Source of the DNA: Bacteroidota bacterium
GTDB taxonomy: Bacteria > Bacteroidota > Bacteroidia > JABEUT01
Direction of reading: 5' to 3'
DNA: 38,611 nt
Assembly (NCBI GenBank): GCA_013288205.1
Contig: JABDCH010000017.1
Span: forward strand, 1 to 38,611
The notes beneath the pieces were generated by a model, which was not told the origin of the DNA, searched no databases, and saw only the letters and a program-made list of their open reading frames with translations. How positions within the stretch are numbered: the first letter of the stretch is position 1; every line of letters begins with the position of its first letter. Position numbers and translations under genes: made by a program. Positions 28,911 to 32,862 of this stretch are shown in pieces.

Positions 28911-28918
28911 TATATTTG
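28911..28918 (+). promoter_or_regulatory. -7 promoter element candidate (TATATTTG)
   Basis: Matches TAnnTTTG, 26 nt upstream of the SprB-repeat surface protein ATG. Confidence 0.4.
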
Positions 28919-28943: not shown

Positions 28944-31085
28944 ATGAAAAAAACTATTTTCATTATTTGTGTAATCTTTTCTCTTGGAATTGGACAAAAT
29001 ACCAATGCCCAAAAGGATACTGCATTTTATTATACAGGTTCGGTGCAGACATGGACAGTACCTCCTTGCGTATATTCAATAATGATTAATGGACATGGAG
29101 CACAAGGTGGAACAGCCCAATATACTTTAGGAGGAGGATTTGGTGCAGACATAACGGGTACCTTTACAGTTACACCCGGAGAGATTCTTAATATTTTAGT
29201 TGGACAAATGGGAACAGCACCAGTTTTGTGCGCCAGTGGCGGTGGTGGTACATATGTATGGAATTCCATTAATTCATCCCTCCCTATGTTAGTTGCCGGC
29301 GGTGGCGGTGGCAGTGCTGGTGGGGATACTTCTGGTGTTGGTTCAGCAACAACAACTCCAACTACGCCTACACCTAACGGATGCGGTGCAGGTGGTGCCG
29401 GCGGTAATGGCGGTGCAGGTGGTGCAGGTGGTAATTTTAAAAACACTGCTACAGGCGGCGGTGGTGCAGGATGGATAAGCAATGGGCAACCCGGAACACT
29501 ATACCCATTTGGCGGTGGTGGTTATGACCCGACAAACGGAGGAACAGGTGGAACTCCAGGTTTCCGAGGTGGACAAGGTGGTTATGGCGGTGGCGGTGGA
29601 TCTGCAGGTTATGATGGAGCAGGCGGCGGTGGCGGCGGATATAACGGCGGCGGCGGCGGCAATCAATGGGATACTATTGCTTGGGGTGCAGGCGGTGGTG
29701 GCGGTTCATATAATGGAGGAACAAATCAAATTAATATTGCTGGGGCTGATACTGGCAATGGTTCAGTTACAATTACTGTTGTTGGGCCATCCATATCCTT
29801 TTCACAAGTAAATCCTATTTGTGGTATGTGCAATGGAGTTCTTGTAGTAGCTGCGAGCGGAGGCGCAACACCTTATACATACTCCTGGTTACCCGGCGGA
29901 CAAACTGCGGATAGCATAACAGGATTATGTGCAGGAACCTATACGGTAACTGTAACGGATTCTTGTGGAAATACTTCTAGTGCATTTGTAGTACTTCCGG
30001 CGAAACCTCTTCCGCTTACAACTACTGTTACTGCCAATGAAAAGTGTAATGGAAATTGCATGGGCAGCGCCATTGTCAAAGTAGATACGGGTACTTCCCC
30101 TTATGCTTATTTATGGACTCCTTCAGGAGGAAATTCTGCGAATGCTACAGGACTTTGTGCAGGTATTTATACCATCACCGTAACAGATAAAAACGGATGC
30201 ACAGGCAGTGCGACCGCGACTATCACAGAACCACCTGCAATAACACTTACTTCCTGGACCAATAATGTAGTATGTGCAGGTACATTGGATAGTGCTACGG
30301 TTACTCCTTCCGGAGGTACTTCGCCTTATACCTATTTATGGGCTCCATCAGGAAAGACAGCAACTACTGTTACAGGGCTTAGTAGCGGTACATATACTAT
30401 TACCGTTACGGATATAAACGGATGCACGCAAAGCACAAGCCTTACCATATTGCATCCACCGGTATTAACCGCAACGATGGGAGTTCCCAATAATGTGCCA
30501 TGCAATGGAGGTATTGGTAATGCTACTGTAACGGCTGGAGGAGGTGTTTCACCCTATATTTATTCCTGGTCTCCATCCGGAGGAAGTAATGCCCAGGGAA
30601 CCGGGCTTAGTGCCGGGAGCTATACTGTGACTATAACCGATCGGAATAGTTGTACAGCAATAGCTAGTGTGGTAATAACTCAGCCACTACAATTGGTAGC
30701 AAAAAAAGATACTATTCTCAATGTTTTTTGTAATGGGGGAGTAGGGAGTGCTGCAATTCGTGTTTCAGGAGGAACTTCGGCCTACACTTATTTATGGCCC
30801 CCTACGAAACAAAGCAGCGATAGTGCAACAGGGCTGAGTGCTGGTTCCTATACTGTTTCTGTAACAGATAACCATCATTGCAGTACCAGTGTGAGTGTGA
30901 CTATTACCCAGCCCACGCAAGTAGCCGCTACGTTTACAATCAATGATGTGCTCTGCAACGGAGGTGTCGGGAGTGCAACAGCCAACGCCAGGGGGGGGGG
31001 TATCACCCTATACTTATCTGTGGACACCTACCAATCAAACTACGGCAACCGCCACCGGGCTAAGTGCCGGAGCATATACCATTAA
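28944..31085 (+). CDS. SprB-repeat surface protein, N-terminal part (Gly-rich domain plus repeats), frameshifted at G10
   Basis: Signal peptide MKKTIFIICVIFSLGIGQNTNAQ; Gly-rich domain; repeats of GG.SPYTYLW.PSG...ATGLSAGSYTVTVTD..GCT. Repeat reading is lost after the G-run (ARGGGITLYLSVDTYQS...). Confidence 0.85.
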   Translation: MKKTIFIICVIFSLGIGQNTNAQKDTAFYYTGSVQTWTVPPCVYSIMINGHGAQGGTAQYTLGGGFGADITGTFTVTPGEILNILVGQMGTAPVLCASGGGGTYVWNSINSSLPMLVAGGGGGSAGGDTSGVGSATTTPTTPTPNGCGAGGAGGNGGAGGAGGNFKNTATGGGGAGWISNGQPGTLYPFGGGGYDPTNGGTGGTPGFRGGQGGYGGGGGSAGYDGAGGGGGGYNGGGGGNQWDTIAWGAGGGGGSYNGGTNQINIAGADTGNGSVTITVVGPSISFSQVNPICGMCNGVLVVAASGGATPYTYSWLPGGQTADSITGLCAGTYTVTVTDSCGNTSSAFVVLPAKPLPLTTTVTANEKCNGNCMGSAIVKVDTGTSPYAYLWTPSGGNSANATGLCAGIYTITVTDKNGCTGSATATITEPPAITLTSWTNNVVCAGTLDSATVTPSGGTSPYTYLWAPSGKTATTVTGLSSGTYTITVTDINGCTQSTSLTILHPPVLTATMGVPNNVPCNGGIGNATVTAGGGVSPYIYSWSPSGGSNAQGTGLSAGSYTVTITDRNSCTAIASVVITQPLQLVAKKDTILNVFCNGGVGSAAIRVSGGTSAYTYLWPPTKQSSDSATGLSAGSYTVSVTDNHHCSTSVSVTITQPTQVAATFTINDVLCNGGVGSATANARGGGITLYLSVDTYQSNYGNRHRAKCRSIYH

Positions 31086-31812
31086 AGTGAGTGATAACAA
31101 CGGCTGTACCTTAACTAATACAGTAACCATTACCCAGCCGGCTGTATTGAGTGTTAATACTACAAACACACACGCCTTTTGCAATCTTCCTAATGGAACG
31201 GCCACTGCAAATCCGGCGGGAGGCACGGGCCCCTATACCTATTCCTGGAACCCCAGTGGTCAAACTACAGCTAAAGCCACAGGTCTGTTTGCCGGAAGTT
31301 TTACGGTAACGGTAACCGATAACCACCATTGCACCACCAGTGCCAGCGTAAGCATTACCCAACCAACCTTGGTAACGGCTACTATCAGCAATGTTAACAA
31401 CGTAAGTTGCTATAATGGAACCAATGGTTCTGCTACGGTTACAGGCAGCGGAGGAACCGCACCCTACGCGTATTTGTGGAGTCCGGGGGGTAATACCAAT
31501 GCCACCGCAACCGGATTATTCGCTTTAAGTTACACCGCTACCGTAACTGATAACAACGGATGTACAGCCAGCGCATCTGTTAACCTGACAGAGCCTACAC
31601 AAGTAACTGCCAGCATCAGTGAGCCTAAAATTATTTGCAAGGATAGTACCGGAGTATTAATAGCTAATGCGAATGGAGGCACCCCACCGTATAAATACAA
31701 TTGGAGTTCGGGAGCCACCAATGGAACAGCTACTATTACCCCTGTAGCTACCAATGATTATTCTGTGATAGTAACCGATAGTCATGGTTGCACTGCCAGC
31801 GCTAACATTGTA
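29822..31812 (+). repeat. Tandem array of about nine SprB-type repeats (roughly 70-75 aa each)
   Basis: Recurring unit C.GG.GSATV..SGGTSPYTYLW.PSG..TATATGLSAGSYTVTVTDN.GCT.SASVTITQP across both ORFs. Confidence 0.85.
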
Positions 31813-32862
31813 TTGCAATATGGCCCGGCTTTTGCCGTAGATATAACCGGAAAGAAATCCGTCTGTGTGGGAGACTCTACCCTTATCTGTGCGAATGCCA
31901 TTGGTGCTATTGATGGAGTATTCTACCAATGGGCCCCGGTAAATAGTAGCAATGGATGTATATTAGTAAGTCCAGGTATATCAAGTGTATATACGGTAAC
32001 GGTAGTAGATGGTTGCGGTTCTACTACAACTGCCCAAACAAGCATAACCGGTGAACCGAGCCCTATAGTGAATATGGGAGTAAACTTCTCACAAGGCTGT
32101 GAGCCTTTCTGTGTGCAGTTTATCAATCAATCTGTATTATCAAAAGGCCAGGTAGGACAATATGTATGGGATTTTGGAGACGGAGACAGTTCCAGCAGCA
32201 AGAGCCCTATTTATTGTTATAAAACAGCAGGACAATACAATGTAAGCCTTACTGTAATATCTGACAGCGGTTGCAGCGCTACCCTAAAGAAGATAAATAT
32301 GCTCACTATTTATGCTCCACCTAAAGCGGCGTTCAGTTACTCTCCCAATCCGGCAACAATAGAAACACCTACTATACAATTTGCTGATAAGAGCAAAGAT
32401 CCCAATGGAAATAATGTGATCTACTGGACATGGAGCTTTGGGGACAGGAGTGACTCGAGCAGTAACCAACAAAATCCAACACATACCTATCACGATACAG
32501 GGATGTATTGTGTAAACTTAACTGTAATGAGTAGAGAAGGCTGTACGGACACAACTACCAACTGCCTGATCATCGAACCTGATTTTAAATTATACATTCC
32601 CTCAGCATTCACTCCAAATCAAGATGGCAGGAATGAAACCTTTCAACCGGTGGGGCAATATGTAAAGAATTTCGAGATGTATATTTTCAATCGTTGGGGA
32701 ACACAAATATTCCACTCAACCAATCTAAATCAGGGTTGGAATGGGGAAGTAAACGGTACAGGTCAAATCTCCCCCGAAGATGTGTATATCTATAAAATTA
32801 TGGTCATTGATGCCAAAGGAACTGAACATTCTTATGTAGGAAATGTCGTCTTGTTGAAGTGA
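30943..32862 (+). CDS. SprB-repeat surface protein, C-terminal part: SprB repeats, PKD domains, T9SS gliding-motility-type C-terminal domain
   Basis: From GVSPYTYLWTPTNQTT onward it continues the repeat register; two PKD domains (YVWDFGDGDSSSSKSPIYCYKTAGQYNVSL; WTWSFGDRSDSSSNQQNPTHTY); CTD YIPSAFTPNQDGRNETF...MYIFNRWGTQIF. The ORF-track N-terminus before about 31001 is probably not a genuine start. Confidence 0.85.
   Translation: MMCSATEVSGVQQPTPGGGVSPYTYLWTPTNQTTATATGLSAGAYTIKVSDNNGCTLTNTVTITQPAVLSVNTTNTHAFCNLPNGTATANPAGGTGPYTYSWNPSGQTTAKATGLFAGSFTVTVTDNHHCTTSASVSITQPTLVTATISNVNNVSCYNGTNGSATVTGSGGTAPYAYLWSPGGNTNATATGLFALSYTATVTDNNGCTASASVNLTEPTQVTASISEPKIICKDSTGVLIANANGGTPPYKYNWSSGATNGTATITPVATNDYSVIVTDSHGCTASANIVLQYGPAFAVDITGKKSVCVGDSTLICANAIGAIDGVFYQWAPVNSSNGCILVSPGISSVYTVTVVDGCGSTTTAQTSITGEPSPIVNMGVNFSQGCEPFCVQFINQSVLSKGQVGQYVWDFGDGDSSSSKSPIYCYKTAGQYNVSLTVISDSGCSATLKKINMLTIYAPPKAAFSYSPNPATIETPTIQFADKSKDPNGNNVIYWTWSFGDRSDSSSNQQNPTHTYHDTGMYCVNLTVMSREGCTDTTTNCLIIEPDFKLYIPSAFTPNQDGRNETFQPVGQYVKNFEMYIFNRWGTQIFHSTNLNQGWNGEVNGTGQISPEDVYIYKIMVIDAKGTEHSYVGNVVLLK
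30991..31000 (+). repeat. Poly-G tract (G10) at the frameshift site
   Basis: gccaacgcca-gggggggggg-tatcaccc. With 9 G the reading becomes ATANARGGVSPYTYLWTP, joining both ORFs. Confidence 0.95.

Follow-up and report, generated by a model that had tools for sequence, protein, structure and literature searches.

A surface-protein gene of an uncultured Bacteroidota bacterium is broken into two reading frames at a run of G, which raises the question of whether the run is a phase-variation switch, as an earlier note on this DNA had proposed, a tolerated frameshift or an error of the assembly. The window (the whole stretch of 38,611 nucleotides that was analysed) is contig C17 of a MAG of 2.42 Mb in 153 contigs, which is 61.7 % complete.

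The split gene and its genomic setting

The features of the locus are collected in Table 1. The run consists of exactly ten G and is the only run of at least eight G in the window. Both this count and the ORFs agree with the earlier description of one protein divided between two frames. The upstream frame encodes, in order, a probable signal peptide, a Gly-rich region, SprB repeats (PF13573, E=2.6e-16, Pfam) and then about 25 out-of-frame residues. It had been claimed that the repeats continue in another frame up to a T9SS C-terminal domain, and the downstream frame was indeed found to hold SprB repeats, PKD domains (PKD_4) and a T9SS type B C-terminal domain (Pfam, TIGR04131). SprB repeats are present on either side of the tract, and the PKD and CHU_C/T9SS type B sorting domains only 3' of it. 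Of the marks of a T9SS-exported SprB-repeat protein, PF13573 was found in each half and PF13585 (CHU_C) together with TIGR04131 in the downstream frame only. The -7-like motif, 25 bases 5' of the start codon, resembles the Bacteroidetes -7 motif TAnnTTTG and we take it to be a putative promoter.

Table 1. Coordinates of the split gene and its parts (positions in the window)
Feature	Position	Strand	Basis and remarks
-7-like promoter motif TATATTTG	28911..28918	+	Letters read directly; function putative
Probable Sec signal peptide MKKTIFIICVIFSLGIGQNTNAQ	28944..29012	+	Judged by eye from the translation
Upstream frame, 713 aa at G10	28944..31085	+	ORF list, translation
SprB repeats 5' of the tract	29799..30990	+	Pfam PF13573, repeat register in the translation
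G10 tract, site of the frame change	30991..31000	+	Direct count; in frame at G6, G9 and G12
Downstream frame, ORF of 639 aa	30943..32862	+	ORF list; authentic protein from about 31001
T9SS type B sorting domain (CHU_C / Bac_Flav_CTERM)	32596..32844	+	PF13585, TIGR04131; lost at G10

The gene is solitary, flanked by tyrS-like and phosphopantetheinyl-transferase-like genes that both lie on the opposite strand, and a search of a plasmid collection gave no match. The genome also encodes T9SS machinery of the kind expected for export of a SprB-repeat protein, with SprA (2373 bits) and two genes of the PorP/SprF family. About 136 genes were assigned as T9SS cargo; they are glycine-rich, a composition that favours G-runs. 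From its domains, the gene product is predicted to be secreted and to reach the cell surface, as a SprB-repeat/PKD protein of an uncultured Bacteroidota bacterium that possesses a T9SS.

From 28944 to 32862 there are 3919 nt (3n+1). When the frame was recomputed for each tract length, products of 1305 aa at G9, 713 aa at G10, 706 aa at G11 and 1306 aa at G12 were obtained, with G6 full length too, so that one G more or less toggles between a full-length and a truncated product. This reproduces the claim that loss of one G would restore a single ORF of about 1305 aa. It was likewise borne out that the G10 state is without its C-terminal sorting domain, which lies beyond the stop at 713 aa. Downstream of the tract there was no stop over about 620 codons and no second shift. 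The length of ten lies within the range of at least 7–8 G given for poly-G contingency genes (PMC6321876). When the contigs of this single MAG were searched with a pattern of flexible length, the tract was not found a second time; it is known in one state per locus, from one incomplete MAG.

The in-frame state could be read from paralogues. The C74 paralogue, in the same genome, is one intact ORF of 1215 aa and has no G-run at the tract position, where it reads GCA-AGT-GGA-GGA-GTA-TCA against GCC-AGG-GGG-GGG-G-GTA-TCA in the window. As C74 is one base shorter at this site, the window gene is in frame at G9, the length that had been proposed as the ON register. The C129 paralogue is likewise single-frame at the site and lacks the G-run. 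The dN/dS ratio 3' of the tract was 0.10 against C74 and 0.11 against C129. These values show that the downstream half has been under purifying selection, and with a ratio so low (about 0.10) the frame break is taken to be recent. Additional inactivating mutations downstream, which had been named, together with a uniform G10, as an observation that would speak against a switch, were looked for and none were found. The C-terminal half is in part 100 % identical to C74, in a near-identical block (window 32300-32690 vs L032:4412-8059, minus strand) that suggests gene conversion or a recent common ancestor. A chimeric assembly of two paralogues was considered and rejected, since this block begins about 1.3 kb past the tract, which is therefore not at a chimera junction.

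Frame breaks at other G-runs

To place the tract among its like, G-runs of 8 or more were collected from the genome. There were 12 (seven G8, three G9 and two G10), 11 of them coding, and the frame was broken at the run in four of the 11: the G10 runs of C17 and C71, the G9 run of C56 and the G8 run of C48. The C56 run (L036:7867-7875) and the C48 run (L035:8827-8834) break DUF7948 paralogues at the same domain junction, the C48 gene with a type B and the C56 gene with a type A sorting domain. The upstream frame of the C48 gene in L035 also contains an N-run with a duplicated stretch on its flanks, an artefact of scaffolding beside the tract. In C71 (L034:1488-1497) the G10 break is near the C-terminus of a protein that is YD/Rhs-like by eye and had no Pfam match. 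Five further genes, in MAGs of the same genus, are frame-broken at runs of G9–G10. Three of these (L073, L085 and L109) have type A sorting domains 3' of the break; the others encode, as judged by eye, an outer-membrane-like protein (L086) and a YD-repeat-like protein (L087). A Pfam T9SS sorting domain was found downstream of the break, severed from the N-terminal part, in six of the nine broken genes.

The DUF7948 family served as a control, and nearly all of the genus genes matched kept a long open frame. Both copies in this genome that are short at the domain junction (C48 and C56) have their G8 or G9 exactly there. The intact copies examined at the junction have no G-run, and one other short case, L277, is an ordinary stop. 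What exceeds chance is that in the window gene and at three further G-runs of the genome the frame changes precisely where the run lies.

For comparison, runs of at least nine G in five other families of the class were mostly intergenic or in frame, with one break, near a start. The coding breaks are therefore neither a general artefact nor a general feature of Bacteroidia MAGs. Housekeeping genes of the genus, such as a mutase-like gene in L083, also contain G-runs of 9 or more that stay in frame. The number of runs varied among genomes: G017, of the Bacteroidia, had 191 G9 matches, far more than its relatives, and G062 and G028 were high too. G-runs of 12–19 were seen near or at contig ends in same-genus genomes (L098:55-73, L107:1-14, L108:3573-3587 and L105:133-144), and these are either real hypermutable tracts that halt assembly or poly-G read artefacts.

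Synonymous codon shuffling of the upstream SprB-repeat part produced a G-run of 9 or more in 0.9 % of shuffles, which is unusual for a single gene and not for a genome with so many T9SS cargo genes. On coding strands, five G-runs of 9 or more were observed and about 1.4 were expected (synonymous shuffle, scaled), with a Poisson p of about 0.014, or about 0.05 when runs are counted at their in-frame length. G-runs of 6–8 were rarer than the shuffle expectation. A test that pooled G and C runs showed no excess, and a modest one emerged when G on the coding strand was taken separately. As the excess at nine or more is modest while shorter runs are depleted, there is weak support for selection acting on the tract. 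GnT sites are a known type of hotspot at which G-runs are extended by substitution (PMC12344412), and such hotspots could help tracts to grow without selection.

A proposed slipped-strand switch and its alternatives

The explanation that we favour, with moderate confidence, is that slipped-strand mispairing of the G-tract uncouples the SprB-repeat/PKD protein from its sorting signal and gives ON and OFF cells of the poly-G contingency type. The tract would have arisen where one repeat has a conserved pair of Gly codons and then slipped by one base, and mispairing at replication would add or remove G at a high rate. In ON cells (G9 or G12) the protein would be exported and anchored, and in OFF cells (G10 or G11) it would be truncated, lack the sorting signal and not be displayed. 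The population would hold both, as with the poly-G contingency genes of Campylobacter, Helicobacter and Neisseria. In C. jejuni, tracts of at least 8 G mediate gene switching, and poly-G tracts in Campylobacter most often have a length of 9 or 10 (PMC6321876). The T9SS recognises the C-terminal sorting domain as its signal (PMC3796261). Because the sorting domain is this recognition signal, and SprA and PorP/SprF are present, no display is expected from the assembled G10 allele (OFF).

How much of the proposed switch stands can be stated in two parts. A genuine, recent frameshift of the slippage type is supported by the comparison with paralogues, by purifying selection downstream and by the recurrence of such cases in the genus. 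The word 'switch' overreaches these data: a poly-G on/off switch is plausible and unproven, and its reversibility is what we infer.

An error in sequencing or assembly of the homopolymer, with a true tract of G9 and an intact gene, would account for the locus, given that this is a draft MAG in which a one-base error in the longest G-run would suffice. At all four breaks in the genome the run is one base longer (+1) than its in-frame length, which would fit such an error, and a search for long runs itself favours +1; for this reason the predominance of +1 among the breaks was also dropped as a sign of recoding. The region of the C48 tract, near the N-run with its duplicated flank, is imperfectly assembled. 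The check for homopolymer error drew on contig stretches chosen without bias, about 340 kb, which with the tract-bearing contigs make about 464 kb of this genome. None of the 117 coding A/T runs of 7–8 bases in the 464 kb was truly broken, unlike in flow-based or raw nanopore data; three flagged A-runs were gene ends or starts (two were checked; the third, judged by eye, is a gene start reading ATG-AAAAAAA). This speaks against homopolymer indels as a general problem. The comparison is unmatched and partly confounded with run length, there being hardly any A/T runs of 9 or more, so that an error rising with G-run length keeps some probability. Other G9 runs in the genome are in frame (C24 and C74), and like breaks occur in other, separately assembled genomes. 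A poly-G-specific assembly error behind the G10 is unlikely, and we regard an artefact as a rather improbable source of the break.

A closer competitor, which we judge unlikely and yet somewhat less so than an artefact, accepts real slippage at a mutable G-run and sees in it no evolved switch. Chance would supply G-runs in glycine-rich proteins, these runs would slip, and an allele broken in this way, tolerated in a dispensable surface gene, would become a pseudogene. The count of long runs only modestly over the shuffle expectation agrees with this, as does the AGG (Arg) codon that the in-frame tract places at a position which is Ser, Gly, Ala or Asn in most repeats. Tract positions differ between homologues (L073 vs L100) and the tract is absent from C74 and C129, which suggests that it is not maintained. 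A decaying allele fits less well with a downstream half that is undamaged at a dN/dS of 0.10, and with breaks that recur among several unrelated surface genes in several species. Programmed frameshifting or transcriptional slippage at the run, giving short and long products from one allele, would explain why the frame changes at a run that looks slippery and why the downstream frame is intact. A conserved frameshift site was not found among homologues, as C74 and C129 read through in a single frame without the run, and the broken genes of different families differ in the length and place of their runs. Known transcriptional slippage sites are, moreover, usually A or T runs (PMC3711429), and we consider this explanation very improbable. 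Slipped-strand switching thus remains the reading that we prefer.

Relation to known phase-variable systems

The mechanism of poly-G slippage is itself well known. No report of poly-G phase variation in T9SS cargo was found in the literature searched, from which subscription journals were largely missing, and T9SS cargo is provisionally a new setting for it. A broader and doubtful extension is that the whole genus uses poly-G slippage to phase-vary T9SS cargo, so that cells would display different subsets of more than 100 surface proteins through the connection to the sorting domain. If the switch in the window gene is real, homopolymer phase variation, studied mainly in animal pathogens, would reach the T9SS adhesins of uncultured Bacteroidota, and single cells of Bacteroidota could differ in adhesion, gliding or phage receptors for a simple genetic reason. 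Such genes may be split or called pseudogenes in MAG annotation, which should be taken as a warning.

Phase variation in Bacteroides proceeds by DNA inversion at capsule and surface loci. The variation proposed here would resemble it in being stochastic, in affecting the surface and in belonging to the same phylum; the Bacteroides systems invert promoters or gene segments, whereas homopolymer slippage would act on the window gene. With the SprB/RemA-type adhesins of Flavobacterium johnsoniae the gene shares SprB repeats, a C-terminal T9SS sorting domain and the nature of a large surface protein (PMC3796261). It differs from them in its length of only about 1305 aa, its PKD domains and a frame broken at a G-run. 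From the poly-G phase-variable genes of Campylobacter, Neisseria and Helicobacter, whose products are mostly surface-exposed, it is set apart by its uncultured Bacteroidota host, by the mid-gene position of the tract, by the loss of a T9SS sorting domain and by the single tract state known. What it has in common with these genes is an intragenic G-tract of 9–10 and a toggle between full-length and truncated products (PMC6321876, PMC3711429).
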